Origin: a virus
Reading direction: 5' to 3' (one strand)
DNA length: 47,602 nucleotides
Virus record (IMG/VR): IMGVR_UViG_3300042870_000487
Span: 1-47,602 of that record
In this document: one piece after another, positions 22,306-41,705 of the stretch
How positions within the stretch are numbered: position 1 is the first letter of the stretch
Layout: the number at the start of each line of letters is the position of its first letter
Notes under the pieces: model-generated
Databases searched by the model: none
What the model was told of the DNA's origin: nothing
What the model saw: the letters and a program-made list of their open reading frames with translations, nothing else
Position numbers and translations under genes: made by a program

Positions 22306-22797
22306 TTAAGCTACCTCTGTTTCATCTTGTGCAATACGATCTTCTTCGTCCATAATTGCAGACTCTAATGTAACAAAGGCTCCGTCGTGGTCACAAACAA
22401 ACCAAACAGCTTTGCCATCAATGTTGCGCAGGATATAGTCATATTCCTGATGTTCGCACTTATTAAAATAATCATTGATATCATTGTAATAGCGAGCCTC
22501 GCAACCTACTTCACCACGATCACGACCATAGAATGTAGTCATGTCTTTGTACAAATGAGAATATTCAACCAATGTCATGTCTTCCATATCATAGTGACTG
22601 AATGGGTGCTTTGTACCGATCGTTGGACGCAAACTAGAGATATCACCTAAATCAATCAGGTCCCGCATTACGAAGGGATTAGAATAGTATTCCATCAACA
22701 TCTTACCGTTGTGAGCCAAGTAACCATCCCAGTGACAGTATACCTGACCGATAGTACCATCAGCGAATTCTAATGAGATTGTAGAACGAGTAGCCAT
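22306..22797 (-). CDS. conserved hypothetical protein (MATRSTI family)
   Basis: A 163-residue protein beginning MATRSTISLEFADGTIGQVYCHWDGYLAHNG when read in two parts; the start MATRST plus YCHWDGY signature marks a small family widespread in phages and bacteria, with no known function. The C-terminus is acidic (MDEEDRIAQDE). It is the last gene of the 22.3-24.5 kb array and has an array promoter immediately upstream (22832-22860). It may serve early in infection, as promoter strength suggests. Confidence 0.8.
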   Translation of the reverse strand: MATRSTISLEFADGTIGQVYCHWDGYLAHNGKMLMEYYSNPFVMRDLIDLGDISSLRPTIGTKHPFSHYDMEDMTLVEYSHLYKDMTTFYGRDRGEVGCEARYYNDINDYFNKCEHQEYDYILRNIDGKAVWFVCDHDGAFVTLESAIMDEEDRIAQDETEVA

Positions 22798-22831
22798 TTT
22801 TTAAGTCCTTTATTTAACTGTCTAAGATTCT

Positions 22832-22860
22832 ATTATATACCCAAAGTGATTTATTGTCAA
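22832..22860 (-). promoter_or_regulatory. array promoter 1
   Basis: Minus strand TTGACA (22855-22860) and TATAAT (22832-22837), both perfect, 17-base spacer containing the array signature ATAAAT and GGGTA. The TGA stop of the upstream gene lies inside the -35 box. Drives 22306-22797. Confidence 0.92.
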
Positions 22861-23135
22861 GCCTCAAGCCGCTCTATAATCCAACCCTCTTGGACCATAT
22901 ATTGATGAAAATCCCGTGTAGCACGAATCTCGGGAGAGTCGGATGTAGTACCGCACATCTGTAAAGACCGTTCACGCATTTCAACAATTTCTGATCCAGT
23001 CCAAGTTGCAGTTGGATCAGTCATCATTTCATTGAACATGAATTGTTTCGACCTCTTATCCAATGTATTACTGAACGGGTTTAATTGCAAAATAAATCCA
23101 GGACCAAGTGAATAAACTGTTTGAAGACTAGCCAT
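22857..23135 (-). CDS. small array gene, unknown function
   Basis: A 92-residue protein starting MASLQTVYSLGPGFILQLNP, with a helical middle (SEIVEMRERSLQMCG) and a C-terminal FHQYMVQEGWIIERLEA. No recognised domain. The ATG is preceded by AAAGGAG and the array leader. Its stop codon forms part of the next promoter's -35 box. It probably belongs to a set of independently transcribed, early small proteins. Confidence 0.75.
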   Translation of the reverse strand: MASLQTVYSLGPGFILQLNPFSNTLDKRSKQFMFNEMMTDPTATWTGSEIVEMRERSLQMCGTTSDSPEIRATRDFHQYMVQEGWIIERLEA

Positions 23136-23169
23136 TTTAAAACTCCTTTATTTAACTGTCTAAGAATAT

Positions 23170-23198
23170 ATTATAGCACAAATGCCATTTATTGTCAA
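23170..23198 (-). promoter_or_regulatory. array promoter 2
   Basis: Minus strand TTGACA (23193-23198) and TATAAT (23170-23175), 17-base spacer; ATAAATGG follows the -35 box. Drives 22857-23135. Confidence 0.92.
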
Positions 23199-23201
23199 AT
23201 T

Positions 23202-23474
23202 TTACACCAAGTCAACTTGGACTTGTTTGTTGCGGAAAGTATGACCTAATCCTGTAGGAACCGTCTCATTTTTACGTTTGGCTTCATAACGCAAATACGA
23301 CAATTTAATCAATGCATCCCAGCAAACTGTACGGGCTGTATTGGTAGCAAACATTTCCGTCATTTGCTTGATAGTCATATACATACCAACATCGTTTTCG
23401 CTTCCATCACCTTTAAAAATTACACGGAATTTTTGTGAGTTTTTGAATCCGTCAATGATAGTTTTTGTACGCAT
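23202..23474 (-). CDS. small array gene, unknown function
   Basis: A 90-residue basic protein. It has beta-type sequence at the start (FRVIFKGDGSENDVGMYMTI), a helical middle (KQMTEMFATNTARTVCWDAL) and a basic C-terminal third. No known domain. It has its own array promoter and AAAGGAC ribosome binding site, and is followed by another array promoter within 4 bases of its stop. Confidence 0.75.
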   Translation of the reverse strand: MRTKTIIDGFKNSQKFRVIFKGDGSENDVGMYMTIKQMTEMFATNTARTVCWDALIKLSYLRYEAKRKNETVPTGLGHTFRNKQVQVDLV

Positions 23475-23507
23475 TTTTTAGTCCTTTTCTTTACTGTTTA
23501 AGATTCT

Positions 23508-23536
23508 ATTATAGCAGAATACCCATTTATTGTCAA
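23508..23536 (-). promoter_or_regulatory. array promoter 3
   Basis: Minus strand TTGACA (23531-23536) and TATAAT (23508-23513), 17-base spacer with the shared ATAAATGG. Drives 23202-23474. Confidence 0.92.
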
Positions 23537-23540
23537 ATTT

Positions 23541-23801
23541 TTACATTGACCAGTAAGTCTCTGTTGCAGGATTACAACAGTGTGGAGTGTCAGCATCAAT
23601 CTCTATTTCCTTGCCGGTCATCAAGTTTTTGACCGTTTTCTTAGGAAAAACATAGTATGGGTTAAGAACCTTGAATGCTTCCAAAGTTTTTGCGGTTTGT
23701 GCTAACGGGTTAGTTTCAATGAATTTCATCATTGACAAGAAACCCATACCCAAAAACTCTGCATCTTTTTGGATAACTTTGATTGCTGTAACTTCTTTCA
23801 T
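23541..23801 (-). CDS. small array gene, unknown function
   Basis: An 86-residue protein: MKEVTAIKVIQKDAEFLGMG, a helical stretch (MMKFIETNPLAQTAKTLEAF), a beta-type segment with NLMTGKEIEIDADT, and a C-terminal HCC pair. The cysteines could bind a metal but there is no standard motif. Own array promoter and AAGGAC site upstream. Function unknown. Confidence 0.75.
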   Translation of the reverse strand: MKEVTAIKVIQKDAEFLGMGFLSMMKFIETNPLAQTAKTLEAFKVLNPYYVFPKKTVKNLMTGKEIEIDADTPHCCNPATETYWSM

Positions 23802-23832
23802 TTGTGTCCTTTAGTTGACTGTTTAAGATTCT

Positions 23833-23861
23833 ATTATATACCCAAAACCATTTATTGTCAA
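23833..23861 (-). promoter_or_regulatory. array promoter 4
   Basis: Minus strand TTGACA (23856-23861) and TATAAT (23833-23838), 17-base spacer, ATAAATGG and GGGTA signature. Drives 23541-23801. Confidence 0.92.
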
Positions 23862-23864
23862 ATT

Positions 23865-24152
23865 TTAACGTTTGTCGCAATACTCAAAAAGGATCCACTT
23901 AGCACGATTGAGGGCTTGACGGGCATCTTCGGCTCGCATATAGTCAATGTCACCGTACTCGGTATTAATCATTTCTTGTGCATCAGACATAAGACTAGCG
24001 GCCATCATTGCAGGACCTGAGAAGCAAAAAGTACTACTTTGTTCTACAGCCTCACGCATTTGGTCTTCTGTGCAACCATACATGCGGATTTGACGTTTTT
24101 CCTGCTCGTTTGTAGCAATCATTTCACCTATTGTGTCGTAACGTAAACTCAT
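23865..24152 (-). CDS. small array gene, unknown function
   Basis: A 95-residue helical protein starting MSLRYDTIGEMIATNEQEKR. The frame stays open upstream to 24281, but that extension would run across the array promoter at 24183-24211 and part of the next gene; the ATG at 24152, with AAAAGGAG ahead, is therefore used. Middle: EDQMREAVEQSSTFCFSG; C-terminal: ARQALNRAKWILFEYCDKR. No known domain. Confidence 0.75.
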   Translation of the reverse strand: MSLRYDTIGEMIATNEQEKRQIRMYGCTEDQMREAVEQSSTFCFSGPAMMAASLMSDAQEMINTEYGDIDYMRAEDARQALNRAKWILFEYCDKR

Positions 24153-24182
24153 TTCTAACTCCTTTTGACTGAATAAGACTCT

Positions 24183-24211
24183 ATTATATACCCAAAACCA
24201 TTTATTGTCAA
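24183..24211 (-). promoter_or_regulatory. array promoter 5
   Basis: Minus strand TTGACA (24206-24211) and TATAAT (24183-24188), 17-base spacer, ATAAATGG and GGGTA signature. Drives 23865-24152. Its -35 box overlaps the end of the upstream gene. Confidence 0.92.
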
Positions 24212-24474
24212 ATTTGGTATGAGCAATAACCACGAATTTTGCTTTGTTTATTGGTAAAGCTTTCGTTGAATTTAACTTCATACCCTTTAGCTTTAAGAGC
24301 CGTCATTAGTGTTGACAGGTCACAGTCTTCCTCAAGGAAAGCATTAGCACCATTTTGATAACTATAGGGGGTGATTTTATCAGCGATACCAAGACTGACC
24401 AGTCGTGCTTTGGGGAAACGTGCCCAAGCGTGTCCAGGGTCACCGAATACTTTGATAGAAATTTTCTTAGTCAT
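24208..24474 (-). CDS. small conserved protein, array gene
   Basis: An 88-residue protein with the pattern VFGDPGHAWARFPKARLVSL, LGIADKITPYSYQNGANAFL and LEEDCDLSTLMTALKAKGYE, a family I recognise from phages and plasmids but without an assigned function. Own array promoter upstream; its stop overlaps the -35 box of array promoter 5. Confidence 0.78.
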   Translation of the reverse strand: MTKKISIKVFGDPGHAWARFPKARLVSLGIADKITPYSYQNGANAFLEEDCDLSTLMTALKAKGYEVKFNESFTNKQSKIRGYCSYQI

Positions 24475-24506
24475 TTGTAGTCCTTTATTTAACTGTCTAA
24501 GATTGT

Positions 24507-24535
24507 ATTATAGACCCAAAATGATTTATTGTCAA
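24507..24535 (-). promoter_or_regulatory. array promoter 6
   Basis: Minus strand TTGACA (24530-24535) and TATAAT (24507-24512), 17-base spacer containing ATAAAT. Drives 24208-24474. Located 3 bases from the clpP stop codon. Confidence 0.92.
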
Positions 24536-24537
24536 AT

Positions 24538-25134
24538 TTAGGACATGTTGCGTTTTTGCAACAGATTATCTGCTAGGCCATACGCTACTGCCTCACTTGC
24601 ACTCATAAAAAAGTCACGTTCCATGTCTTTTGCAAGCTCCTCAAATGTCTTTCCTACACTATTGTGGTCAACATAGATTTGTGTTAGTGATTTCTTCATA
24701 GCTAGTATTTCTTTAACTTGAATCTCCATATCAGTAGCCTGACCACGGGCACCACCTGAGGGTTGATGAATCATATGCCGAGCATTGGGTAGAATACTAC
24801 GTTTACCTTTTGCACCAGCTTGGCCTAGTAAACTTCCCATTGAACAAGCCTGACCCATAACAATAGTTTGAACATCTGGTCTAATGAATTGCATACAATC
24901 ATAGATTGCCATACCAGCTGTTACTGAGCCACCCGGGCTATTGATATAGATGCTGATATCCTTATCTGAATCTTCACTCTCTAAGTACAGTAGTTGAGCA
25001 ACGATTAGATTTGCCATTTGGTCATGCACCTCACCTTCAAGTAAAATAACACGATCTTTTAGTAGACGGCTGTAAATGTCATAACTACGTTCGCCTTTAC
25101 TTGTTTGTTCTAATACCATTGGGACTAAGCTCAT
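24538..25134 (-). CDS. clpP: ClpP serine peptidase subunit
   Basis: A 198-residue ClpP. The catalytic triad is intact: Ser98 ([10 protein letters not shown]), His123 ([10 protein letters not shown]) and Asp174 (MERDFFMS). The N-terminus is [19 protein letters not shown], which corresponds to the mature bacterial form, so the usual propeptide is missing and no self-cleavage should be needed. The glycine-rich handle and [11 protein letters not shown] stretch are as in bacteria. ClpP forms a double-ring peptidase fed by ClpX or ClpA. Here a phage ClpX with an intact ClpP-binding IGF loop is 6 kb away. AAGGAAAC precedes the ATG. Confidence 0.96.
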
Positions 25135-25158
25135 ATTGTTTCCTTCTTTTAAAAATAT

Positions 25159-25187
25159 TTGCGATAAATACAGAATGGTGCTATAAT
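25159..25187 (+). promoter_or_regulatory. sigma70-type promoter
   Basis: TTGCGA (25159-25164) and a perfect TATAAT (25182-25187) with a 17-base spacer. The -10 box lies in a small inverted repeat GTGCTA-TAAT-TAGCAC. A GATAAATAC late-like string overlaps the -35 box. It drives the plus-strand gene at 25220. Confidence 0.7.
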
Positions 25188-25219
25188 TAGCACTTCATTA
25201 ACTATTTGAGATATTATAC

Positions 25220-26293
25220 ATGAGATATACTGAATTTACAAGAACTTTGGTTGAAGCTGTTGACCAAATTAAAACTGTTACCAAGCACGATGTGGAACAG
25301 ACATTGCGTAAAGCTGGGTATGAAGATTTCAAAGTTAACGGTAATAAAATCAACGTTTTGGTTCAGATTCCCTCTGGGCAACAAGAAAACGAGTTCCGTG
25401 TGTCTATGTTAGAAGAAATATTAACAATACTAAAGAAAGTATACGGAAATCAAGTATCATTCAGTAATGATCCGGGACTGAGTAGTTTGGGTGGGGTTGT
25501 GTTTGATGATGGTCCGGTATCAGTTGTTGTTAAAGATATTGGTAAACAAGGTAACAACAGTGCAGGTGTTGGTAACGAATTAGAAATGGCTGGTTTAATA
25601 GCATCTGTGATTCAAAAATATACGACGGCAAACATTACATTTGTTGATCCACGTGGTAAGAAAATGACTATTAAAAATTGTACAAACGTTGACGTTAAGG
25701 GTCGTGACACCGCAGATAGAAAAAAAGCTGACGTTGTGTTGTCTAGTGATAAAGGTAGTCTACCTATTAGTATTAAAAAACTTAATGCTGATATGTGGGA
25801 AAGTGCTGATACTATGATTGGTTCAAGGGCCCGTGTTATTCTTGACAAACTAGTTAAAGAAGGTTTAGTTAAATTAAAAAAGATTGGCGAAAGAAAAACC
25901 AGATCTGGGTCAGTTCCTGTATACGCTTTATCTAAAGAGATTGTTATGGAGCCAACTGAAGAAGAAGCACTAAGTGCTGTGTTCGGTAATGACTTAAACC
26001 CTAAGGGCGGAATTGTTGTTCAAACGTTTAAGCCAGAGCATTTTGTACAAGACGGTCCTACAGTAACTATTGATTGCCACGCGGTTATTACTAATGCTTC
26101 AGAGATTCCAGAAAGTCATTTAATGGTTTGGTTACTGCGTAATGACAGCACACGCAATGGCGGAACATTGGGTGTTGCGGGCATTCGTCCATTAGGTGTA
26201 ACATTATCACGTGGTATCGGTAAGAAGGGTACAAAAGACGTTATCTTGGTAGATCAGTACGGTAACGTAGTAGATAATCCAAATATCAAGTAA
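25220..26293 (+). CDS. large conserved hypothetical protein, possible nuclease-like fold
   Basis: A 357-residue protein of unknown function. Residues about 115-200 contain GVGNELEMAGLIASVIQKYT, then VDVKGRDTADRKKADVVLSS and GSLPISIKKLNADMW. The spacing of an early Glu, a later Asp and a following Ile-Lys resembles the PD-(D/E)XK nuclease core, although the second acidic residue before the Lys is replaced by Ser. Residues 205-250 look like a small winged helix (ARVILDKLVKEGLVKLKKIG). The C-terminal part is beta-rich and lysine-poor. The gene stands alone on the plus strand behind its own promoter and converges with the SprT-like gene. Confidence 0.7.
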   Translation: MRYTEFTRTLVEAVDQIKTVTKHDVEQTLRKAGYEDFKVNGNKINVLVQIPSGQQENEFRVSMLEEILTILKKVYGNQVSFSNDPGLSSLGGVVFDDGPVSVVVKDIGKQGNNSAGVGNELEMAGLIASVIQKYTTANITFVDPRGKKMTIKNCTNVDVKGRDTADRKKADVVLSSDKGSLPISIKKLNADMWESADTMIGSRARVILDKLVKEGLVKLKKIGERKTRSGSVPVYALSKEIVMEPTEEEALSAVFGNDLNPKGGIVVQTFKPEHFVQDGPTVTIDCHAVITNASEIPESHLMVWLLRNDSTRNGGTLGVAGIRPLGVTLSRGIGKKGTKDVILVDQYGNVVDNPNIK

Positions 26294-26785
26294 TTAGCAT
26301 TTAGCAAAAGTTTGATGCTTAAGCCAACGCTTTTGGCCATGACCTACTTTTAATGATATCCCGTGTTTAGCAAGTCTTTCTCTATGTTCATAGAAGCTAG
26401 GACCATGACTCATTAGACGTTGTTTACCTTCACGTTCACGTTTTACTCCGTCAATATCCCATTGATATTGATGTACCATTTCATGTGCTAGAGTAGTGAT
26501 TAACCATTGTTTACAGAACCACTTGTCCATAAGACGTATTTTACAATAGGTTTTACGGTATTTAACTATATCATAACTAGCATAGCACATACCCCAGTAT
26601 TTTCTACAACGGCCAATAACCTCAAATTCAGGCATGTCTAGTTTATTGTTAAAACAAGCTTTATTGATTAGTTTATATAGTTCTATTACTTCAGCTTCAT
26701 TGGTTCGATAGCTTAGACGTTTTTGATAACCGATACTTGGTAGCGGTTCACGCATTAGTTTGGAAAGTTCGGATTTTTTTGTCAT
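26294..26785 (-). CDS. SprT-like zinc metalloprotease
   Basis: A 163-residue SprT-like protein. The zinc motif HExxH is present as LAHEMVHQYQW, and the third ligand region SHGPSFYEHRERLAKHGI follows at the expected distance. The N-terminal helix LYKLINKACFNNKLDMPEF and the strand with GRCRKYWGMCYASY are typical. In eukaryotes the SprT domain of Spartan cuts proteins cross-linked to DNA; bacterial SprT is less studied. In a phage it might clear DNA-bound host proteins (inference). An AATAAATA box lies just before the ATG. Confidence 0.88.
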   Translation of the reverse strand: MTKKSELSKLMREPLPSIGYQKRLSYRTNEAEVIELYKLINKACFNNKLDMPEFEVIGRCRKYWGMCYASYDIVKYRKTYCKIRLMDKWFCKQWLITTLAHEMVHQYQWDIDGVKREREGKQRLMSHGPSFYEHRERLAKHGISLKVGHGQKRWLKHQTFAKC

Positions 26786-26883
26786 ACTATATTTATTGTA
26801 GCAGGACCCTGTAATCTAGCAATATATTAGGAAAAATAACCAATTTATTGTCCTAGAGTAAATATATGTTTAGGAGAAATTAA

Positions 26884-27222
26884 ATGGAAATTATTATAGG
26901 ATTGGTTATTTTGGGCGGCGTAGCTTGGTTCTTTTTCATGCGTGATGGAAAGACAACAGAAGTAGCGGCACCTTATAAGGTAGAAGCACCTGCTCCGGTA
27001 GAAGAGCCAGTTAAGGTTGAGGCACCTAAAGTAGAAGCACTACCTGCTGGAACAGAAGCTTTATCAATTGTAGCACCTGCAACAAAAGCCATGGCACCGG
27101 CTAAGCCTAGAGCGGCCGCTAAACCTAAGGCACCTGCTAAAACAGCTGCCAAAGCACCAGCTAAAGCCCCGGCAAAAACTGCTAAAGCCCCTGCTAAGCC
27201 AAAAGTGTCAGTAGCAAAATAA
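26884..27222 (+). CDS. membrane-anchored Lys/Ala/Pro-rich protein
   Basis: A 112-residue protein with one N-terminal membrane segment (IIIGLVILGGVAWFFFM) and a long unstructured tail. The tail changes from an acidic, Glu/Pro/Val part (EAPAPVEEPVKVEAPKVEA) to a basic part of KAPAK-type repeats (residues about 75-112), like histone H1 or TonB-type linkers. AGGAGAAATTAA precedes the ATG. It may bind nucleic acid or bridge membrane and wall, but there is no direct evidence. A similar Lys/Ala/Pro-rich secreted protein is at 44321. Confidence 0.72.
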   Translation: MEIIIGLVILGGVAWFFFMRDGKTTEVAAPYKVEAPAPVEEPVKVEAPKVEALPAGTEALSIVAPATKAMAPAKPRAAAKPKAPAKTAAKAPAKAPAKTAKAPAKPKVSVAK

Positions 27223-27237
27223 CTATTGATTTGATTA

Positions 27238-27930
27238 ATGAAAATAGGATTTGATGTAATTAGTGACTTGAATCTTAAGCCCAATGAACTATTTGGGTGG
27301 GAAGGAAAAGCGACAAGTCTCTATTGTATTATAGCAGGTAACATCAGTAATGATTTACGTACTATACATCAAATCCTATTACATTTATCACATTTTTATC
27401 AAGGTGTGTTCTACACCGCAGGAACATTAGAATATGAAGGTGTGACTAATCTAGCACATCGCACAGACGAACTTTTCAACTTATGTAAAAGCATACGCAA
27501 CGTAGCTTATTTACATAACCATGTAGTCATTATAGATGGTATTGCTATTGTAGGGTCTAATGGTTGGTTAACTCTAGAGGATAAATATCCTTTACTACCA
27601 ATTGATGCTATAGAACAGGAACGATATCAAGACATTGGTTATTTAAGTAATGCTATAGAAAAACTTCAGCTACATCTAGATGTGAAGAAAATCATAGTAG
27701 TTAGCCACTCAGCTCCTAGCTATGAATTATTATTTGGAGAAGAACCTGATATAATATATTCAATTCCTCCACTTAAATTATCACTAATCAAAGACCTAGA
27801 AAGTAAAGTAACTCATTGGATATACGGCGATTATGACAAAACTGTTGATATTGTAATTGATGGGATCAACTACATTAACAACAGTTATTATAAAAGAAAC
27901 CCGTATTGGGCTAAGAGAATAGAAATTTAA
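27238..27930 (+). CDS. degenerate metallophosphoesterase-like protein (probable pseudoenzyme)
   Basis: A 230-residue protein whose layout follows the metallophosphoesterase at 21127 but with most metal ligands replaced. DLH becomes DLN (Asn12), the GD motif becomes GN (Asn35), GNHE becomes GTLE (Thr63, Leu64), GHHAPS becomes SHSAPS (one His kept), and GHMHD becomes GDYDK. The start MKIGFDVISDLN and the hydrophobic core strands are preserved. The open frame is intact, so it is not a decaying pseudogene but likely a protein that kept the fold for binding or scaffolding. It converges with clpS (4-base overlap). A distinct metal site using Asp cannot be excluded. Confidence 0.72.
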   Translation: MKIGFDVISDLNLKPNELFGWEGKATSLYCIIAGNISNDLRTIHQILLHLSHFYQGVFYTAGTLEYEGVTNLAHRTDELFNLCKSIRNVAYLHNHVVIIDGIAIVGSNGWLTLEDKYPLLPIDAIEQERYQDIGYLSNAIEKLQLHLDVKKIIVVSHSAPSYELLFGEEPDIIYSIPPLKLSLIKDLESKVTHWIYGDYDKTVDIVIDGINYINNSYYKRNPYWAKRIEI

Positions 27931-28235
27931 GTAGTCTCGGACTCTACTTTAACTTGTAGAGGGTAGCCTTGACTACGTGCTAATACCGTTACTTCAATAC
28001 CTTTTTGTTCGGCAATTTCGTAGGGTAAGACAGCAACAACTGCACTACCATTACTATGAATATTTTCTGTAATATGTACTGCGGTATCATCAGTATAATT
28101 GAAATATTCAATTAAACTACTCACAACAAATTCCATACTGGTTACTTCATCATTCAAATAAATGATTTTGAATAATGGGGGTTCTACTAAACTCAAGTTT
28201 GGTTTAATTGTGGTTTTAATTTCTGTTTTTGCCAT
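27927..28235 (-). CDS. clpS: ClpS adaptor of the N-degron pathway
   Basis: A 102-residue ClpS. The core matches the family: LFKIIYLNDEVTSMEFVVSS, NIHSNGSAVVAVLPYEIAEQ and LARSQGYPLQVKVE. Residues that form the N-degron pocket in the E. coli protein are mostly kept: Asn28, Asp29, Glu30 (for Asp), Thr32, Met34, Val37 and His60. The flexible N-terminal tail that engages ClpA is present (residues 1-18). ClpS normally hands substrates with Leu, Phe, Tyr or Trp at the N-terminus to ClpAP. No ClpA is in the window, so it may use the host ClpA. A TATAAATA box and hairpin precede it. Confidence 0.92.
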   Translation of the reverse strand: MAKTEIKTTIKPNLSLVEPPLFKIIYLNDEVTSMEFVVSSLIEYFNYTDDTAVHITENIHSNGSAVVAVLPYEIAEQKGIEVTVLARSQGYPLQVKVESETT

Positions 28236-28252
28236 AGATTTAATTTAGTTGT

Positions 28253-28274
28253 GAGTGCGAGTTTCCCCGCACTC
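28253..28274 (-). promoter_or_regulatory. hairpin in the clpS leader
   Basis: GAGTGCG and CGCACTC form a 7-bp stem with an 8-base loop between hsp20 and clpS. On the minus strand it lies in the clpS leader downstream of the TATAAATA box, with no following T-run. It could act as an attenuator, an hsp20 3'-end stabiliser or a translational control element. Confidence 0.55.
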
Positions 28275-28275
28275 T

Positions 28276-28283
28276 TATTTATA
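28276..28283 (-). promoter_or_regulatory. late-type promoter element (TATAAATA)
   Basis: Exact TATAAATA on the minus strand between hsp20 and clpS, 41 bases before the clpS ATG. Confidence 0.55.
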
Positions 28284-28297
28284 GAAGTTTTATTATA

Positions 28298-28747
28298 TTA
28301 CTTAGTATAAGTTATTGCAATAGATTTTGGCTTCTTTTCTTCTGGAACTTTGCGTTCTAAATAAACAGAAAGAATTCCGTTCTTTACTTCAGCATGTATT
28401 ACTTCTACATGTTCAGCTAATGGGAATGTTTGTGTAAAATCTCTATTACTCAATCCTCTATGTAAATATTCATAGTTGAGCATTTCTTCACGTGCTTTTG
28501 ATCCAGATATAATTAATGCATTGTTATCTAATTTAATATCTAAATCACTTTCCCCAAAACCAGCCACAGCGACCTCAATAGTGACAGTCTCCTCACCTGT
28601 TTTAATAACGTTGTGAGGTGGATAATTGGTATTTGTTTGTCCAGCAGTTACCCGTAGTAACTCATCTAGCATGGAATCAAATCCGATTCCAAATTTGTGA
28701 ATTGATGGGATATCAATAGCACGAAGGGTTAGTGTTTTTGTTGTCAT
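28298..28747 (-). CDS. Hsp20 / IbpA-type small heat-shock protein
   Basis: A 149-residue small heat-shock protein. The N-terminal region (SIHKFGIGFDSMLDELLRV) is the usual IbpA-like start, followed by the alpha-crystallin domain at about residues 42-135: PPHNVIKTGEETVTIEVAVAG begins it, then NALIISGSKAREEM and NGILSVYLERKVPEEKKP close it. The C-terminal IxI-type motif appears as SIAITYTK. These proteins hold unfolding proteins for refolding by DnaK, here encoded just upstream. Small Hsp20 genes are known in cyanophages. The leader has a possible ROSE-like element next to the ribosome binding site. Confidence 0.93.
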   Translation of the reverse strand: MTTKTLTLRAIDIPSIHKFGIGFDSMLDELLRVTAGQTNTNYPPHNVIKTGEETVTIEVAVAGFGESDLDIKLDNNALIISGSKAREEMLNYEYLHRGLSNRDFTQTFPLAEHVEVIHAEVKNGILSVYLERKVPEEKKPKSIAITYTK

Positions 28748-28753
28748 GTTTTT

Positions 28754-28768
28754 CTCCTAATAAGCAAG
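28754..28768 (-). promoter_or_regulatory. possible ROSE-like RNA thermometer at the hsp20 start
   Basis: On the minus strand the transcript reads UUGCU, a 4-base loop (UAUU), then AGGAG just before the ATG. UUGCU facing AGGA is the core of ROSE thermometers, which hide the ribosome binding site of hsp20 genes. The stem outside the core is weak, so this is tentative. The same UUGCU...AGGAG is found in front of dnaK. Confidence 0.35.
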
Positions 28769-28788
28769 TTTATGACGATATCGGGCCC

Positions 28789-28800
28789 GCCGAATGCGGC
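28789..28800 (-). other. GC-rich stem-loop between dnaK and hsp20
   Basis: GCCG-CATT-CGGC on the minus strand in a short GC-rich island (also containing GGGCCC) inside an AT-rich gap. It may be a transcript processing or partial termination site between dnaK and hsp20; no T-run follows. Confidence 0.4.
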
Positions 28801-28817
28801 ACCCAATGTTGTTTAGA

Positions 28818-30713
28818 TTAAGTTGATTCCTTAACCTCTGCATCTACCACATTGTCGTCAGATTTTTGTGATTCAGATGTTTCTTTAGCTTTTTGTTCCT
28901 CTTCAGATTTAACTTTAGTAATAGGACCAATAGCTTCATATAGTTCTTTGACCTTGTTGTCAATTTCTTCAACTTCAGACCCAGCTAATGCAACTTCTAG
29001 TGCATCAATAGCATTAGATGCTTTTTCTTTTTCTTCTGCTGTAACTTTGTCACCGTATTTTTCATAGTCTTTACGGAAACTATTTAATGTTGATTCACCG
29101 CTATTTTTTGCTTGAATGAATTTAACTTGTTTAGCATCAGCCTCAGCATTTTCTTCAGCATCATTAACCATCTGTTGAATTTCTTTTTCAGTTAGTCCTG
29201 AATCTGATTTGATAGTGATTTTATTTTCTTTGCCTGTACCTTTGTCTTTGGCACTGACATTAAGAATTCCATTAGCATCAATATCTAATGTAACTTCAAT
29301 CTGAGGAACACCACGCATTGAAGGTGGAATACCCTCTAAATTAAATTCACCTAATATCTTATTGTATGTAAACAAATCACGTTCACCTTGTGCAACCTTA
29401 ATAGTTACAGCTGGTTGATTGTCATCTGCTGTTGAAAACACTTGTGAATGTTTAGTTGGAATAGTTGTATTCTTCTTAATCAACTTAGTAAACACACCGC
29501 CTGATGTTTCAATACCCAAACTTAATGGGGTAACATCAAGTAACAATACATCTGTACGTTCACCGGCTAACACACTACCTTGAAGTGCCGCACCCGCTGC
29601 CACTGCCTCGTCTGGATTAACATCCTTGCGAGGTGCTTTACCGAACAATGATTCAACAATTTCTTGTACTTTTGGCATACGTGTCATACCACCAACAAGA
29701 ATAACTTCGTCAATATCAGATGTAGAAACACCTGCATCAGTCATTGCTTGCTTACATGGTTGAATACTACGTTGAATTAATTCATCAACTAATGATTCTA
29801 ATTTAGCACGACTTAACTTAACATTCAAATGTTTAGGACCATTAGCATCGGCTGTAATATATGGTAAGTTAACATCTGTTTGTGCTGAACTTGACAATTC
29901 AATCTTAGCCTTCTCAGCCGCTTCTTTTAAACGCTGTAGTGCTAGCATATCTTTCTTAAGATCAACCGCATTGTCTTTCTTAAACTCATCAACCAAATAA
30001 TCCATGATACGTTGGTCAAAGTCTTCACCACCTAAGAATGTATCACCGTTAGTTGATAATACTTCAATTTGAGTTTCGCCCTCAACATCTGCTAATTCAA
30101 TAATAGATACGTCAAATGTACCACCACCCAAGTCATAGACAGCAATCTTGCGATCCGTTTTATCTTGTTTATCTACACCGTATGCTAGAGCAGCCGCTGT
30201 AGGTTCGTTAATAATACGTAATACTTCTAATCCTGCAATACGTCCTGCATCTTTAGTAGCTTGACGTTGACTATCATTGAAGTAAGCTGGCACTGTGATA
30301 ACTGCTTGAGTAACCGTTGTACCCAAATAGTCTTCCGCAGTCTTTTTCATTTTGCGTAGTACTTCAGCACTAATTTGCGGAGGTGCTAATTTTTTATCTA
30401 ATACTTCCACCCATGCATCACCATTCTCGTTTTTAACGATTTTATATGGCATTAAATCAATATCTTTTTGAACAGCGTTTTCTGTGAACTTACGTCCAAT
30501 TAATCGCTTGGCAGCGTAGATAGTATTTTTGGGATTTGTAACTGATTGACGTTTGGCACTTGCACCTACTAGAATCTCATCATTGGCATAGGCAACGATT
30601 GAGGGTGTAGTTCTTGCACCTTCACTATTTTCAATTATTTTGGGGATTCCGTTTTCAATAACGGCTACACATGAATTTGTGGTACCTAGATCGATACCGA
30701 TTACTTTGCTCAT
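28818..30713 (-). CDS. dnaK: DnaK (Hsp70) chaperone
   Basis: A full-length, 631-residue Hsp70 (E. coli DnaK is 638). The ATPase domain has [59 protein letters not shown] and [14 protein letters not shown]; the linker [19 protein letters not shown] leads to the substrate-binding domain and helical lid. The C-terminus ends [10 protein letters not shown] and so lacks the EEVxD-type tail of bacterial DnaK. The ATG at 30713, with GGAG ahead, starts at the conserved [10 protein letters not shown]; a 17-codon extension is not supported. No DnaJ or GrpE is present in the window, so host partners would be used. Full DnaK in a phage is rare. Confidence 0.97.
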
Positions 30714-30719
30714 AGTTTT

Positions 30720-30735
30720 CTCCTTTGTAAAGCAA
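30720..30735 (-). promoter_or_regulatory. possible ROSE-like RNA thermometer at the dnaK start
   Basis: On the minus strand UUGCU, a 6-base loop (UUACAA), and AGGAG precede the dnaK ATG. This repeats the pattern before hsp20 and fits the core pairing of ROSE elements (U-A, C-G, G-G, U-A). The predicted stem is short. Confidence 0.35.
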
Positions 30736-30775
30736 GATTTTTTCTCTATAGACCCGTTAGGCATCTACAGAAAAG

Positions 30776-30783
30776 TATTTATT
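30776..30783 (-). promoter_or_regulatory. possible late-type promoter element (AATAAATA) for dnaK
   Basis: Minus strand TATAATAAATAC in the 108-base gap between rpsU and dnaK. It overlaps a TATAAT without a good -35 box. The gap also holds a leader of about 60 bases and the possible thermometer element. Confidence 0.4.
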
Positions 30784-30821
30784 ATAATAGATTGTGTAAA
30801 AAAATATATTATTTAGGGAAA

Positions 30822-31040
30822 TTAGTACAACTTTTTAGGCAATTGCTGGTCACGCAAATATTTGTCCCAACGTCTTTTAGCTTGACTTTTAGCTAGTTTA
30901 CGTTTAACAGTAGGTTTCACAAATTCTTGTCGGTCACGGGTTTCTTGTAAAGTACCATAATCTGTAATCATTTTCTTGAACTTACGTAAGGCCTTTTCTG
31001 TATTTCCGTCATTAACTAAAACTTTTCGTCCTCTAATCAT
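30822..31040 (-). CDS. rpsU: ribosomal protein bS21
   Basis: A 72-residue protein that matches bS21 over its length: [19 protein letters not shown] corresponds to the N-terminal helix, and [19 protein letters not shown] to the conserved basic stretch (EKPTxxRKRAKASAxKR in bacteria). bS21 sits on the 30S platform near the anti-Shine-Dalgarno and helps start translation on natural mRNAs. It is coupled to clpX by an ATGA overlap. Phage bS21 genes are known from some marine and large phages and are thought to steer ribosomes to phage mRNA; with IF-1 in the same genome the case is stronger here. Confidence 0.94.
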
Positions 31041-32242
31041 ATTGCGGCTTTTGGCTGTAAAATTTGCTCCTGATTAATATTTATCTTTTTAATGTTATTT
31101 TCACGGTACTTCTTAGTGTTATACATATGAGGCATCAAAACCTTTTCAATCTCTGTATGTAAACCACGGGCACCGGTCTTTAATTTCATTGTATTTTCGG
31201 CTAGTTGTGAGATGGCATCTTCTGTAAAATCTAATTCAATGTCATCTAAACTTAATAGATATTTATATTGGTCAATATAGTTGTTTTTAACTTTGGTTAG
31301 AACCTGAATCATTTCATCTTTAGTCAAATTATCTACATTAACTGTAGTAGTGAAACGTCCAATGAATTCAGGAATCATTCCAAATCGTGTTAAATCATCT
31401 GGACTAACCATAGATAAATCACCATCTTTACGTGAGTCCTTAATATCAGCACCAAATCCAATACTAGTTCCATTTATCCTATTGTTAACAATATCCTTTA
31501 ATCCAACAAAAGCTCCGCCCGCAATGAACAGAATGTCTTTTGTATTAACTTCAATCATATCACCGCTAGGATGTTTACGTCCACCACCTGCTGGAATACG
31601 ACATACAGTACCTTCAACCATCTTCAATAATGCTTGCTGGACGCCTTCACCTGATACGTCACGGGTAATACTAGCACCCTCACTCTTACGGGCAATCTTG
31701 TCAATCTCATCAACAAACACTATACCACGTTCTGCTAACTTAGGATCTCCCCCGGCAGCGTTGACTAGCATACTAATCATTGATTCAACATCATCACCTA
31801 CATATCCGGCTTCTGTTAAACTTGTAGCATCAGCAACAATGAAGGGCACTTTGAGATATTTTGCTACTGTTTTAGCAAGCAAGGTTTTACCTGAACCAGT
31901 TGGTCCGATCAATAATACATTGCCCTTATGTATCTCTAAATCTTTAGGAGGATTGTTAATACGTTTATAGTGATTAGCGATAGCTACACTAAGAACCATT
32001 TTAGCATTAATTTGACCAATAATATGTTGGTCTAAGAAATCTTTAATAGTTTCTGGATCATATCTAAGATGGTCTTTTTCAATGACCTCATCTGAAGTAT
32101 TATTTTCATCTACCATTAATTGAGTACATAACTCAATACAGTCGCTACAAATAGCAACATCTTCTCCGACGATTAATTTATTAACGGTATCTTTATGATT
32201 ACCGCAGAATGAGCAATGACTTAATTTTGTTTCTGTTGACAT
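31037..32242 (-). CDS. clpX: ClpX unfoldase ATPase
   Basis: A 401-residue ClpX. Zinc-binding domain: Cys10, Cys13, Cys32, Cys35 ([20 protein letters not shown]). Walker A is GPTGSGKT at residues 113-120, Walker [13 protein letters not shown] near 174-185. The pore loop GYVG is at 146-149, the RKH loop at 222-224, and the IGF loop that docks on ClpP at 261-263 (SIGFGADIK). Sensor 2 Arg is in [13 protein letters not shown]. All elements for a working ClpXP are there, including the surface for ssrA-type tags. It lies between a lipoprotein gene and rpsU (ATGA overlap). Confidence 0.97.
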
Positions 32243-32255: not shown

Positions 32256-33263
32256 TTAATTATTTTTCACACACACTTTTTTAGGTACTACTGATAATTC
32301 AATTTTAGATAAATTTTGCATAAAATATGCTAACTTACTATTCTGTTGAATTTTTACCTTAATACTAGCTTGTTCACTGGCTGTTCTATTAATACCAACG
32401 TTAATTGTTTTTACATAATTAATATTATAATAATCCCCCACTCTACTATGTAATTGTTTAGGAACAAAACATTCACTATATTGTGTTTTATTATATAGGT
32501 CTTTAATTTCCATATTAATTCTAACTTCATTCCAATCCATAAAAGAATCTAAAATTTTATTAGGAATAACAAATTCGTTAAAGTAATATTTTTCGGACCC
32601 TACTCGGATCATAGCAGGATACTGTTGAGCAAATCCTTTTTCTGCCGTCCAAAGTGATGGTTTACCATCTGCTACTATTTTTATAGCGTCATTTAATGAT
32701 GCTACATAATTTGGATTCCAAGATAATGTATAGGGAATAGTTAATGTTAAATTCCTGTATGTATCTATCTTAACAATATAATTACTCTGCTTGATATCAT
32801 ATGCCCGTTTAGGATAATCGTTCAATACACTAGCAAGTATCCTATCACCATTTTGTTTGTTCTCTAGGAAGGATTTATATTGGCTATTATGTTTAGTACC
32901 ATCAAGATTTTTACTATCCTTACCCTTAGAAAGAATCCTATCACTTATTCTTAATAGGGACAACTTAACATCCACTACTACTTGAACCTTATTACCGATG
33001 TTTTGTTGTGAGATAATTTTATACTCATCAACAAACGCTGAACTGTAGGCTAGTATTTCATTTTTAATAAGTTTGTCATTGTATGATTCACGTTCACTAG
33101 CAATTACTACACCTACTTGGTATTCAATTGCTTCCTTAAACGCATTAGTTTTTGCTTCTTCGTAAGTATTACCTAGACCGGTAGTACGAATGTAATTATC
33201 AGATTTAGAGGTAGAAGCACATGCGGTAAGTATAAAACATACCGCTATCAACAATAAACGCAT
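32256..33263 (-). CDS. lipoprotein, LPP20-like
   Basis: A 335-residue lipoprotein. Signal peptide and lipobox: [18 protein letters not shown], with Cys15 as the lipidated residue. The first part of the mature protein ([20 protein letters not shown] onward, [13 protein letters not shown]) is an LPP20-like alpha/beta motif that occurs in bacterial outer-membrane lipoproteins. The rest is beta-rich and unassigned, ending with [12 protein letters not shown]. It starts two bases after the stop of another lipoprotein and precedes clpX by 13 bases. A phage lipoprotein might change the host envelope or block superinfection (inference). Confidence 0.8.
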
Positions 33264-33265
33264 AA

Positions 33266-33901
33266 TCAGTTACCGAATTTTTTACGCAATTGATTTGAAA
33301 CTTTTTCGGATTCTTTATCCCAGCGAATTGTTACAGCTACTTCCTGTGCTCCAACAACTTCTTGTTTAATTACTTTAAAACCTCGTAAAATACCCTGAGC
33401 ATTAACCCGAATAGTTTCACTTAATTGATAAGCGGTGTCATTGCTATTTTCACGGATTGAATGATTAGTGTCTTTTTCAGCATCAGTATCACTCATTGCA
33501 ACAACTTCTCCTGTTGTTGTGCGAGATTTCATTCTATCGTTTGCTTTTTCAACATTCTTGGCAAGTGTGTTTTGAACACGTGTACTAGAAACATCTTCCT
33601 GAATAAAGTGACGTACACCTGCACGGGCACGATCACCTGCACGAATCAATGCTGTTCGGCGGTTGTTTTCACTATTGCCATTAGAACTAGCAGTACCTAC
33701 AGACTCAATACTAATAACCTCACAATTTGATTTGTTTAGTGTGTACCAAGCACAATCAGTTTCAATACGAATAGTATCTTGTTTAAATGAGGTGGATAGT
33801 TTTTGATTACGAATTTGTTCAAATTCACCCTCACCCCGTTTCATGCCAGAACAGCCCGCTAGTGAAAGAGCAGTTACTAAAGCTAATAATTTGAAAGTCA
33901 T
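33266..33901 (-). CDS. lipoprotein of unknown function
   Basis: A 211-residue lipoprotein. The ATG at 33901 is chosen because it starts the signal sequence MTFKLLALVTALSLAGCSGM with lipobox LAGC (Cys17); the open frame upstream to 33949 is not supported. Mature part: a motif with DCAWYTLNKSNCEVISIESV (two Cys that may pair), then ALIRAGDRARAGVRHFIQED, and a C-terminal beta part (VVGAQEVAVTIRWDKESEK). It has some similarity in layout to the neighbouring LPP20-like gene. It is the first gene of the clpX-rpsU unit and has a TTGACA promoter. Confidence 0.78.
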   Translation of the reverse strand: MTFKLLALVTALSLAGCSGMKRGEGEFEQIRNQKLSTSFKQDTIRIETDCAWYTLNKSNCEVISIESVGTASSNGNSENNRRTALIRAGDRARAGVRHFIQEDVSSTRVQNTLAKNVEKANDRMKSRTTTGEVVAMSDTDAEKDTNHSIRENSNDTAYQLSETIRVNAQGILRGFKVIKQEVVGAQEVAVTIRWDKESEKVSNQLRKKFGN

Positions 33902-33930
33902 TTCAATCTCCAATAAGTTAAGATACGTGT

Positions 33931-33959
33931 ATATTAACACACTATCCAATTATTGTCAA
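33931..33959 (-). promoter_or_regulatory. sigma70 promoter of the lipoprotein-clpX-rpsU unit
   Basis: Minus strand TTGACA (33954-33959) and TAATAT (33931-33936) with a 17-base spacer. ATAATTGG after the -35 box resembles the array promoters. It overlaps the last bases of the gap after the 33960 stop codon. Confidence 0.8.
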
Positions 33960-35495
33960 TTATTTTTGATTCTTTAGGAACAATTCTATCTGTTCTTTTT
34001 CAGTTTCGGACAACAAATCCAAATCATATTCGCCCTTTTCTATCTTTTCAACCAAATATTTGATATATTTTTGGTTGTGCAGATAGGTATCTGATTGGTC
34101 CTTTTGTATCTCAATCCATTTGCGACCATCATACTTGTAAACATGGTTTGGTAATGAATCTACCCTTACAAATACGTCTCCTTTATTGGCAACATCTGGA
34201 AATTTTATTCCAAAATTTGTACTAATAGTCCGTTGACTGTCAGCCGTTACCATAAATACGTCTGGGCGTAAACTCTTTAATGCATCCATTTGGTAATGCT
34301 TATCCTCAAACATTACATATCCACCTTCTAATTCCTTATAAGGTTTTGATGGTTCAAGTAATACTTCTGTATCTATTTCTTCAATTGGTTCTTCTTTTGG
34401 AGCGACCATTGGCTTAGTATCAAAATGAACAAACGGTTTACTTAAGTAAGGATGTTGTTCTAGTATTGATTCTTCTTCAAAAGGTCCATCTCTAACATCA
34501 CATAATTTGTTTGGACAGAATAGACCGATGCCAGTAGCGTTTACCAATTCAGTACCGCACATGTAGCAGTTAATAGGATGTTTGGGGGTTCCCGCCATTG
34601 CAATAATCTGTTTAATCTGTTCATCAGTTAACGGACCATCGTCTTGTTCATATTCAGGTTCAGTGACAGTGGGAGTCGATGGTGTTTCATTCCCTAGAGG
34701 GCTGTCACCCTCCTCATCTTCTTTTTCTTTATCCCATTCTTTACTTGCATTAGCCGCAAGTACAAGTGCAATAGCTAATGGATCAAATACAATGACCAAT
34801 AAAATAATAACCCAACGTACCGCTGCCTCTAACATATTGTTATCAGCATTATCACCGTATATCAATGCGGCAATGTATTTAATAGGTCCTACTTCAGCTT
34901 CAATCTTACGATTCTCTGCCGCAATAGGTGCTCGTTCTTCATTTAGTTTAGCAATTTCTTTTTGAGCATCACCTATTTCTTTTTGTAGTTTAGTACGCTC
35001 GCCTGCTTGTTGTCTACGAATTTGAACAGCACGTTCAGCACTTGTTTCACTATCACCACGACTCAATCGTTGGTCAACTTGATTGTCCATTTGAGTTAAT
35101 GCTTTACGGGCTAACTCAATGTTGTCTCGTTGTGTTTTAATCTTTTCATCATAGAGGGATAGTTTGGCTTGACTATCACCGGTGGAGATACCTTGTTCCA
35201 TATGTGCTTTACTTAAAAAGCCAAAGATACCCATAGAGGTAAGTAATGCCAATGCAACTACTGCAGGTACTAGATAGAGCTTGAGCATAAAGCCACAACG
35301 ATTCCAGTACTTGCGTAGCCAAACAATTGTGGTGATCTTTCCTACTTCAAGAATACCCCCCATAATGATAACGGGAATAACCGCACCTGCAAAGATAGCG
35401 GTTAAGCCGATGATACTATACCAGGCAGCTACTGAACTAAGTGATAGTGCTACTAATAGTGTGAGATTTGAGAATGATAAAAAATTAAGGCGCAT
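33960..35495 (-). CDS. polytopic membrane protein with coiled coil and zinc ribbon
   Basis: A 511-residue protein. Four membrane segments: residues about 8-28, 30-52, 72-96 and 225-250. Between the third and the fourth is a long charged coiled coil (residues 105-205). After the last segment, residues about 290-345 carry a Cys4 zinc ribbon (CYMCGTEL, then CPNKLC), and the remaining 160 residues are soluble and acidic. This is a conserved but uncharacterised protein of T4-like aquatic phages. The long soluble tail with zinc ribbon suggests a cytoplasmic docking part. Role unknown; envelope takeover or a phage assembly platform are guesses. Confidence 0.8.
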   Translation of the reverse strand: MRLNFLSFSNLTLLVALSLSSVAAWYSIIGLTAIFAGAVIPVIIMGGILEVGKITTIVWLRKYWNRCGFMLKLYLVPAVVALALLTSMGIFGFLSKAHMEQGISTGDSQAKLSLYDEKIKTQRDNIELARKALTQMDNQVDQRLSRGDSETSAERAVQIRRQQAGERTKLQKEIGDAQKEIAKLNEERAPIAAENRKIEAEVGPIKYIAALIYGDNADNNMLEAAVRWVIILLVIVFDPLAIALVLAANASKEWDKEKEDEEGDSPLGNETPSTPTVTEPEYEQDDGPLTDEQIKQIIAMAGTPKHPINCYMCGTELVNATGIGLFCPNKLCDVRDGPFEEESILEQHPYLSKPFVHFDTKPMVAPKEEPIEEIDTEVLLEPSKPYKELEGGYVMFEDKHYQMDALKSLRPDVFMVTADSQRTISTNFGIKFPDVANKGDVFVRVDSLPNHVYKYDGRKWIEIQKDQSDTYLHNQKYIKYLVEKIEKGEYDLDLLSETEKEQIELFLKNQK

Positions 35496-41052: not shown

Positions 41053-41319
41053 TTAAATTTCAGTTTCGTATTCGTAAAACTTAACAGATGGATCCAACTG
41101 TTTCAATTGTTTAGCGGCAGTCATCAACTCCTTATATCTCCGATTGACCTCTGCGCGGGGAAGTTCACCATCGCAGGTCAAGTTCTCAGGGCTAAGAGCA
41201 GAATCAATTTGATCTGCCAAACGTTGACGACCTTGGGCAGTAGCAATTTCGTATTGCTCACCTTTGAAGAAACTGTTCCAGTGATTCTTCTGGTCAATGT
41301 ATTTTTGCAATGCTTTCAT
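41053..41319 (-). CDS. small array gene, unknown function
   Basis: An 88-residue helical protein (MKALQKYIDQKNHWNSFFKG, ATAQGRQRLADQIDSAL, LPRAEVNRRYKELMTAAKQL). No known domain. It is the first member of the second promoter array: TTGACA/TATAAT promoter at 41354-41382 with the same leader as the 22.8-24.5 kb array. Confidence 0.75.
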   Translation of the reverse strand: MKALQKYIDQKNHWNSFFKGEQYEIATAQGRQRLADQIDSALSPENLTCDGELPRAEVNRRYKELMTAAKQLKQLDPSVKFYEYETEI

Positions 41320-41353
41320 GTTTAACTCCTATTGTTTAACTGTTTAAGATTCT

Positions 41354-41382
41354 ATTATATACCCAAATTGATTTATTGTCAA
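41354..41382 (-). promoter_or_regulatory. array promoter 7
   Basis: Minus strand TTGACA (41377-41382) and TATAAT (41354-41359), 17-base spacer, ATAAAT and GGGTA signature. Drives 41053-41319. Confidence 0.92.
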
Positions 41383-41384
41383 AT

Positions 41385-41705
41385 TTAGGAGCCTGTAGTC
41401 ACAAATAAGATTTCAGGGTCAATTGAGCTTTGTTTGAAAGACTCAATAAAAATGTGATGGTTGTCACCACTGTTACTGATAAGAGTATCAGCCGCAATAT
41501 ACAATGACTTCCAAGTATTACCTTCAATAGCAACCTCATGATCACCGGATCCATAAGCCTGATAGATAACTTTTGTGACACCTTTGAAAGGATGAGTTTC
41601 GTGCAAGGCGTCAACCTCGTAGATTGACCAAACGGCATTCAAACCCAACTCGTCACGTGCTTTATCAAAATAAGCAAATTTAACATCAAATTCTTGGTCT
41701 GTCAT
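41385..41705 (-). CDS. small array gene, unknown function
   Basis: A 106-residue slightly acidic alpha/beta protein (EFDVKFAYFDKARDELGLN, then VIYQAYGSGDHEVAIEGNTW and SNSGDNHHIFIESFK). No known domain. Own array promoter and AAAGGAC site. Its stop is 3 bases before array promoter 7. Confidence 0.75.
   Translation of the reverse strand: MTDQEFDVKFAYFDKARDELGLNAVWSIYEVDALHETHPFKGVTKVIYQAYGSGDHEVAIEGNTWKSLYIAADTLISNSGDNHHIFIESFKQSSIDPEILFVTTGS

Follow-up and report, generated by a model that had tools for sequence, protein, structure and literature searches.

Described phages with Clp and chaperone genes

Genes for Clp and Hsp70 proteins in phage genomes are usually listed singly, as auxiliary genes. 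Agrobacterium phage Atu_ph07 was published with ClpX, ClpP, ClpA, ClpB, ClpS and DnaJ (PMC6102473), and Sinorhizobium phage Phosso encodes a small heat-shock protein besides ClpX, ClpP, ClpA and ClpS, with clpX and clpS about 16 kb apart; unlike the DNA described here, neither gave a match to DnaK. Moraphages, aquatic jumbo phages of Bacteroidota hosts, encode DnaK, DnaJ and Hsp20, and ClpX, ClpP and ClpS are not mentioned in the paper describing them (PMC12619734). Their DnaK is of the Flavobacteriales type, whereas the one studied here is closest to beta/gammaproteobacterial DnaK. In freshwater phages carrying ribosomal protein bS21, the bS21 gene lies near Hsp20 in 127 genomes and near Clp protease families (50 and 47), and is expressed late, but these phages have Bacteroidetes hosts, their bS21 is found beside capsid genes, and DnaK is not mentioned (Chen et al. 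2022, PMC9723584). Among Lak phages there is one genome with both DnaK and ClpX, far apart according to the Lak-A1 record coordinates, and no ClpS match.

In the cultured Pseudomonas phage PA5oct (NC_071039, Arenbergviridae), clpX overlaps rpsU, the gene for bS21, and the pair is followed by hsp20, clpS, a DNA ligase gene and clpP, all in one direction, with a dnaJ-clpA pair further on. The present locus has the same clpX-rpsU overlap and the same clpX-rpsU-hsp20-clpS-clpP order; PA5oct differs in having no dnaK, two additional genes between rpsU and hsp20, and an FtsH gene pair. Paride, Callisto and MIJ3 group with PA5oct, and in this group ClpX is about 42% identical to the one described here and ClpS has the same key residues. 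The literature on the PA5oct relatives and a 2026 jumbo-phage review do not mention the Clp set, and a blastn search of the 9-kb cluster against annotated phages gave no match.

Gene content and conservation of the locus

The window is the whole stretch of virus DNA analysed (47,602 nt, IMG/VR record IMGVR_UViG_3300042870_000487). Within 7.7 kb it holds clpX-rpsU-dnaK-hsp20-clpS, then sprT and clpP. The first-pass annotation had placed ClpP, ClpX, ClpS, Hsp20 and DnaK genes here, and ORF coordinates together with Pfam matches bear out all five, each on the minus strand. The features are as follows.

32256..35495, minus strand: two small lipoprotein-like genes and a membrane protein gene, just upstream of clpX
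31037..32242, minus strand: clpX, 401 aa, complete zinc domain and AAA+ unfoldase with IGF loop
30822..31040, minus strand: rpsU (bS21), Pfam Ribosomal_S21 4e-15, start codon overlapping the clpX stop codon
30776..30783, minus strand: AATAAATA, T4-late-promoter-like motif 5' of dnaK
28818..30713, minus strand: dnaK (Hsp70), 631 aa, Pfam HSP70 7e-258
28298..28747, minus strand: hsp20, phage-type small heat-shock protein, 149 aa, PHROG 432 1e-37, Pfam HSP20 1e-16
28276..28283, minus strand: TATAAATA, T4-late-promoter-like motif 5' of clpS
27927..28235, minus strand: clpS, N-degron adaptor, 102 aa, Pfam ClpS 2e-23
26294..26785, minus strand: SprT-like metallopeptidase, Pfam SprT-like 6e-9
24538..25134, minus strand: clpP, 198 aa, without propeptide, Ser-His-Asp triad intact, Pfam CLP_protease 8e-80

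The SprT-like gene and three plus-strand genes between clpS and clpP had been left out of the first-pass annotation, and rpsU had appeared there only as a synteny check. Upstream of clpX, the order mem511-lipo227-lipo335-clpX is common to the relatives, and these three genes probably share the clpX transcription unit. A structure model of lipo335 gave a weak-to-moderate match to 9hmf_A (E 1.5e-4), a chain of the periplasmic scaffold of the Campylobacter flagellum, and a weaker one to FlgT (3w1e, E 2.3e-3); the model of the neighbouring phrog_12709 gave no confident fold match.

The same gene order was found in dozens of viral IMG/VR contigs with ClpX identities of 72–100%. Downstream sequence of 9 kb was available for 34 non-identical ClpX loci: hsp20, clpS and clpP are present in all 34, the SprT-like gene in 27 and dnaK in 12, or about one third, so that DnaK is an optional member of the cassette; the clpX-rpsU adjacency recurs in the relatives as well as in PA5oct. 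Related phages keep these genes at the locus, so the proposal withstands the refuting condition named in the first pass, that relatives would lack them there. The combined set can no longer be called unusual, as had been supposed, given its conservation across many IMG/VR contigs, the PA5oct order without dnaK and the published Atu_ph07 set. A 348.7-kb relative (ClpX 96% identical) carries the cluster together with terminase (TerL), portal, major capsid protein (MCP), tail sheath, a gp21-type prohead protease, a T4-type DNA polymerase and UvsX; the window itself is part of the genome of such a T4-like jumbo phage. These phages probably infect freshwater Burkholderiales, an assignment made from two characters, DnaK similarity and tmRNA type.

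All five proteins have bacterial homologues, as would be expected of an assembly chimera or a bacterial fragment, but that origin is negligibly probable: the cluster stands in the same order in dozens of viral contigs, in the 348.7-kb contig with structural genes and in PA5oct, and the closest bacterial DnaK found is at most 76% identical. With the same junctions present in independent contigs, this reading was rejected. Values of dN/dS between the window and four relatives were 0.03–0.10 for clpX, dnaK, hsp20, clpS and clpP, which indicates that the five genes are under purifying selection, and every signature residue tested in the cluster proteins was intact (about 80–130 distinct relatives per gene).

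Protein features and predicted partners

The best PDB relatives of the phage ClpX are bacterial ClpX proteins (E 2e-116), and Pfam recognizes its zinc finger (2e-13) and AAA_2 domain (3e-30). The zinc cysteines (C4), Walker A and B motifs, pore loop (YV), and RKH and IGF loops read by the first-pass annotation are all there, and are kept in about 106 relatives. The triad that it had read in ClpP, Ser98/His123/Asp174, is correct and occurs without exception in 81 distinct relatives, and its view that a propeptide is missing is also correct, since ClpP aligns over its full length with PDB ClpPs and matches mature bacterial ClpP from residue 1 onward. These features support the view that ClpX and ClpP are equipped to dock with each other. 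Of the earlier proposal that the phage may assemble its own ClpXP, the premises stand (intact genes that belong to the phage and evolve under purifying selection, with docking features on both partners), and the assembly itself is what we infer from them.

PHROG and RefSeq labels would instead make ClpP a head maturation protease: it matches PHROG 94 of that name (1e-50), and the PA5oct ClpP bears the same label. This is very improbable, as 10 of the 13 relatives examined for it have a separate gp21-type (S77) prohead protease, which in relative G002 lies near portal and MCP genes, while ClpP is of bacterial type and is grouped with ClpX and ClpS, far from the head genes. The separate S77 enzyme led us to reject this role.

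In ClpS, the residues contacting the N-degron alpha-amino group, Asn34/Asp35/His66 in E. coli numbering, correspond to N28/D29/H60, and these are invariant in 127 of 127 relatives, as are E73 and E76; K78 is kept in 120 and is Arg in 7. The published ClpA-contact residues of ClpS are Glu79/Glu82/Lys84, and those contacted on ClpA are T81, R86 and E28 (PMC12493166). By keeping the residues for both N-degrons and ClpA, ClpS points to ClpA and not ClpX as its partner. A ClpA gene adjoins dnaJ in all 11 related contigs of at least 230 kb, away from the clpX cluster; the relatives' ClpA has a Clp_N domain and E. coli ClpA as best PDB match (E 5e-182). IGF loops are present in 12 ClpAs, which also keep the ClpS contacts T81 and R86; those with a complete N-terminus keep E28 as well. 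The pairing of ClpS with the phage ClpX was rejected as the default on the basis of this ClpA and the conserved contact residues.

A permuted tmRNA (RF01850) was detected at E<=1e-3 in 10 of the 11 large contigs, seven of them above the gathering score. In all nine examined, the acceptor stem is fully paired and contains G3-U70, the mark of alanine identity, and the tag in the large relatives is of the ClpX type, ending in LAA or IAA, as in ANDSQFALAA. A blastn search of the tmRNA against annotated phages found no match. Both tmRNA and SmpB have been reported from huge phages (PMC7162821); here, tblastn with the E. coli protein found no SmpB in G002, the one genome searched. The ClpA-DnaJ pair and the tmRNA lie elsewhere in the related genomes and had been missed in the first pass; the window, being a fragment, stops short of the dnaJ-clpA locus and contains no tmRNA, and we infer from the relatives that its own genome has them.

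For dnaK, a longer ORF (648 aa) begins at 30764, but AAAGGAG directly precedes the ATG at 30713, in agreement with the earlier length of 631 residues. The protein covers 595 of 599 Pfam positions and has the ATPase motifs, interdomain linker and substrate domain of an Hsp70, with linker and ATPase residues conserved in 79 of 79 sequences. In the DnaK tree, a fully supported split separates the phage DnaKs from those of beta/gammaproteobacteria. The gene seems to move together with its hsp20 allele; the presence of dnaK requires 6 changes on the hsp20 tree against 8 on the clpX tree, and since this gap is small, the argument for co-transfer uses the identity comparison and the L026/L031 case. 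A complete DnaK-DnaJ-GrpE system is not phage-encoded, as DnaJ was found in 11 of 11 large relatives and GrpE in none, and DnaK would thus probably need host GrpE. Neither GroEL nor Aat was found among the related phage genomes. With GrpE, Aat and, in G002, SmpB not found, the phage would have to draw on its host for some steps of each pathway.

Late-type motifs and possible roles of the cassette

T4-type late-promoter-like motifs occur at dnaK, hsp20 and clpS. Counted over the whole window, the motif is no commoner than expected (21 observed, 26.7 expected), so the argument uses the contrast between strands upstream of genes: 5' of dnaK, [N]ATAAATA is present in the sense direction in 63 of 77 distinct relatives and never in antisense, and 5' of clpS the late motif is found in 36 of 122 in sense and in none in antisense. 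No late motif was found upstream of clpX and clpP, and co-expression of the whole cassette may therefore not hold. Taken with the published late expression of bS21, the motifs suggest that the chaperone part acts during mass production of virion proteins.

We favour, at a probability of about 0.6, the reading that these genes are a proteostasis cassette, conserved among T4-like jumbo phages, for quality control and targeted degradation late in infection. The family encodes ClpP, the docking unfoldases ClpX and ClpA, the adaptor ClpS and Hsp20, with DnaK in a subset. Phage ClpXP and ClpAP would be assembled from these subunits, alone or mixed with host ones; tmRNA-tagged or stalled products would pass to ClpX or ClpA, and N-degron proteins to ClpS-ClpA, while Hsp20 would hold misfolded virion proteins for refolding by DnaK-DnaJ with host GrpE. 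More tentatively, and going by gene content, the phage may run an almost full tag-and-destroy system of its own, partly host-independent late in infection, with phage-specific LAA/IAA tags from tmRNA, ClpX, ClpA and ClpP, an N-degron branch under phage control through ClpS, and an exchangeable dnaK-hsp20 pair for refolding.

The phage subunits could also simply join the host pools, with ClpP entering mixed assemblies with host ClpP and ClpX, ClpA, ClpS and DnaK docking on host partners, raising capacity during infection without forming a separate machine. The agreement of the phage interaction loops with the bacterial consensus, the closeness of phage ClpP to bacterial ClpP in alignment and the probable dependence of DnaK on a host factor all fit this possibility, which we consider rather doubtful because the family keeps its own ClpP, both ATPases and an adaptor, more than a one-component boost. 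Less probable again, and in our view unlikely, is that the cassette mainly serves to destroy particular proteins of the host (regulators, antitoxins, defence proteins) and that the chaperones are incidental to this. Host targets were proposed for phage ClpP, ClpS and SprT by Iyer et al. 2021 (PMC7824862), and the substrate-selecting ClpS and the adjoining SprT-like peptidase agree with this, but the late-type motifs at dnaK, hsp20 and clpS would be rather late for takeover and no target-specific adaptor was identified.

In this large freshwater family of jumbo phages, ClpP with ClpX and ClpA, ClpS, DnaJ and Hsp20 form a conserved set, to which tmRNA is often and DnaK sometimes added. The set is not unprecedented, having an annotated counterpart in cultured PA5oct, and the cluster is usually without DnaK. 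Whether a virus can conduct regulated proteolysis of its own, and why the presence of DnaK varies together with one hsp20 allele, become testable questions, and the cultured relatives PA5oct and Paride make deletion tests possible.

The Clp and Hsp70-class gene set and its phage setting

ORF calling and Pfam searches of the window, a linear IMG/VR virus record of 47,602 bases, placed genes for ClpX, S21, DnaK, Hsp20, ClpS, a SprT-like peptidase and ClpP at 24,538-32,242 on the minus strand, confirming the five-gene set (ClpP, ClpX, ClpS, Hsp20 and DnaK) where the first-pass annotation had put it. Its reading of the start sites, the ClpP triad and the ClpX zinc cysteines, Walker motifs, pore, RKH and IGF loops also held, as did the lack of a ClpP propeptide, since the alignment to mature bacterial ClpP begins at residue 1. 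Values of dN/dS were 0.03-0.10 for clpX, dnaK, hsp20, clpS and clpP (window versus four relatives), and the set is shown, at the level of sequence, to be phage-borne, intact and conserved, with matching docking residues.

An IMG/VR search with ClpX returned 259 related stretches, of which 80 loci were kept. Across these the order mem511-lipo227-lipo335-clpX-rpsU-[dnaK]-hsp20-clpS-(sprT)-clpP is maintained (the first three being a membrane protein and two lipoprotein-like genes), and the synteny check found the cassette kept at the same locus. A second contig (L002) has this order with 100% protein identity to the window, and so does the 348.7-kb relative G002 (locus L004; ClpX identity 96%), which encodes terminase, portal, major head protein, tail sheath, T4-type DNA polymerase and UvsX. 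The major head protein shares 64-67% identity with jumbo-phage counterparts, e.g., that of PA5oct, and together these features identify the window contig as phage. Since G002 also has a separate S77 gp21-type prohead protease, found in 10/13 relatives, ClpP is ruled out as the head protease.

For the lipoprotein-like gene immediately upstream of clpX (32256-33263), the structure model matched a chain of the flagellar periplasmic scaffold of Campylobacter (9hmf_A, E 1.5e-4), with a weaker match to FlgT (3w1e, E 2.3e-3). Elsewhere in the window, a papain-like peptidase lies amid tail-fibre-like genes (5609-6442), and genes for an IscA-type Fe-S protein, superoxide dismutase and translation factor IF-1 are consecutive (9534-10717).

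Spread of the cassette and possible mobility of dnaK

The genes were counted in 34 non-identical ClpX loci whose downstream sequence spans 9 kb or more: all 34 have hsp20, clpS and clpP, 28 have rpsU and 12 have dnaK. The cultured Pseudomonas phage PA5oct (NC_071039) resembles the window in that clpX overlaps rpsU, followed by hsp20, clpS, a ligase and clpP, and it has a dnaJ-clpA pair; in Sinorhizobium phage Phosso and Agrobacterium phage Atu_ph07 the same genes are more dispersed. The earlier view that the combined set is unusual is not supported: the cassette is conserved, and PA5oct has it in nearly the same order, lacking dnaK. Among deposited phage records, the sole entry common to the DnaK and ClpS match lists was a split Acinetobacter assembly (MD-2021a) that has a bacterial look, with hscA also present. 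DnaK occurs in Lak and other huge phages, with no ClpS match. A full DnaK, 67% identical to that of the window, lies at 30036-31973 of the 42.6-kb 'Pseudomonas phage Y6' record (GenBank OQ572408.1), a possible case of contamination. The contig G007 (IMGVR_UViG_3300027749_002876, 524,565 bases) carries ClpX, ClpP, ClpA and a DnaJ-type gene twice each, and is possibly two related phage genomes fused during assembly.

In a tree of 53 sampled phage DnaKs and 43 beta/gammaproteobacterial DnaKs, the latter picked by similarity to the window DnaK, one fully supported branch divides the two; the best bacterial match of the window DnaK is from Burkholderiales (76%). For genome pairs with ClpX identity of at least 90%, which are not independent, mean Hsp20 identity was 0.90 where both carry dnaK, 0.86 where neither does and 0.60 in discordant pairs, and ClpS identity was steady at 0.88-0.95. 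At the DNA level, dnaK and hsp20 of loci L026 and L031 are 85-87% identical to the window, versus 74-78% for the flanking clpX, rpsU and clpS. These contrasts fit a joint exchange of dnaK and hsp20, which is only suggestive because tree label counts for dnaK presence differ little.

Promoters and timing

Octamers of the form NATAAATA, which is of the T4 late-promoter type, have a strong strand bias upstream of G002 genes (GATAAATA: 32 sense versus 5 antisense). In distinct relatives, a late-type octamer precedes dnaK in 63/77 (none antisense), hsp20 in 63/125, clpS in 36/122, clpX in 2/102 and clpP in 0/80; matches for rpsU fall within the clpX coding sequence and were left out of the evidence. 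The bS21 of other freshwater phages is expressed late (PMC9723584). The PHROG 12709 gene (25220-26293), of unknown function and with no confident match to its structure model, has GATAAATA upstream in 26/28 relatives and is probably a late gene. Near-identical strong promoters, TTGACAATAAATGG-N-TATAAT, occur nine times or more, at 22788-24535, 41310-42163 and 585-613, and a wider pattern has 11 matches in the window versus 0.42 expected; several stand immediately before small unknown genes, and they are probably an early-gene array.

ClpA, tmRNA and the proposed working of the kit

In all 11 related contigs of at least 230 kb, DnaJ adjoins an unfoldase of the ClpA-like, double-AAA kind that has a Clp_N domain at its N-terminus and, among PDB entries, matches E. 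coli ClpA best (E 5e-182). Twelve phage ClpAs have IGF loops and all keep E. coli ClpA Thr81 and Arg86; Glu28 is retained wherever the N-terminus is complete, and Glu23 is frequently Gln. Equivalents of the E. coli ClpS contacts to ClpA (Glu79, Glu82 and Lys84; PMC12493166), along with the N-degron triad, are kept in essentially all of 127 distinct ClpS sequences. The presence of ClpA in relatives and these contact residues point to ClpA as the natural partner of the cassette ClpS. A second J-domain protein of 200 aa (G002:C1:197457-198062) is restricted to three of the DnaK-carrying large contigs (G002, G007 and G018).

The tmRNA of G002 is permuted and of betaproteobacterial type (RF01850, 91.2 bits; gathering score 84), with the tag ANDSQFALAA:

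G002:C1:38344-38717 (L349, L230:344-717): permuted tmRNA; others at L342-L352

Of the 11 large contigs, 10 have an RF01850 match with E<=1e-3, and in seven of these it exceeds the gathering score. The tags, among them ANDSQFALAA, ANDELYSLAA and ANAANDEVFALAA, vary in sequence and have LAA or IAA as their last residues. In 9/9 tmRNAs examined the 7-bp acceptor stem is fully paired with G3-U70, and the stems have four different sequences with changes on both sides. The window record does not reach this locus, and a tmRNA in its phage's own genome is inferred from the relatives. Phage tmRNAs are already known from Bacillus phage G and some mycobacteriophages (PMC4131195) and from huge phages (PMC7162821), and no paper among those consulted ties one to a phage ClpX/ClpA/ClpP set.

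Searches found no GrpE in the 11 large contigs, no SmpB in G002 and no GroEL. Hybrid operation with host subunits is an alternative to a self-contained kit, and for DnaK may be likely. The variant seen here is DnaK inserted into a PA5oct-type cassette, a kind already known, with tmRNA in the same phage family. In a kit run by phage subunits, ClpX and ClpA would assemble with ClpP into phage ClpXP and ClpAP, ClpS would deliver to ClpA, tmRNA-tagged proteins would be turned over, and the kit may serve late in virion protein quality control.
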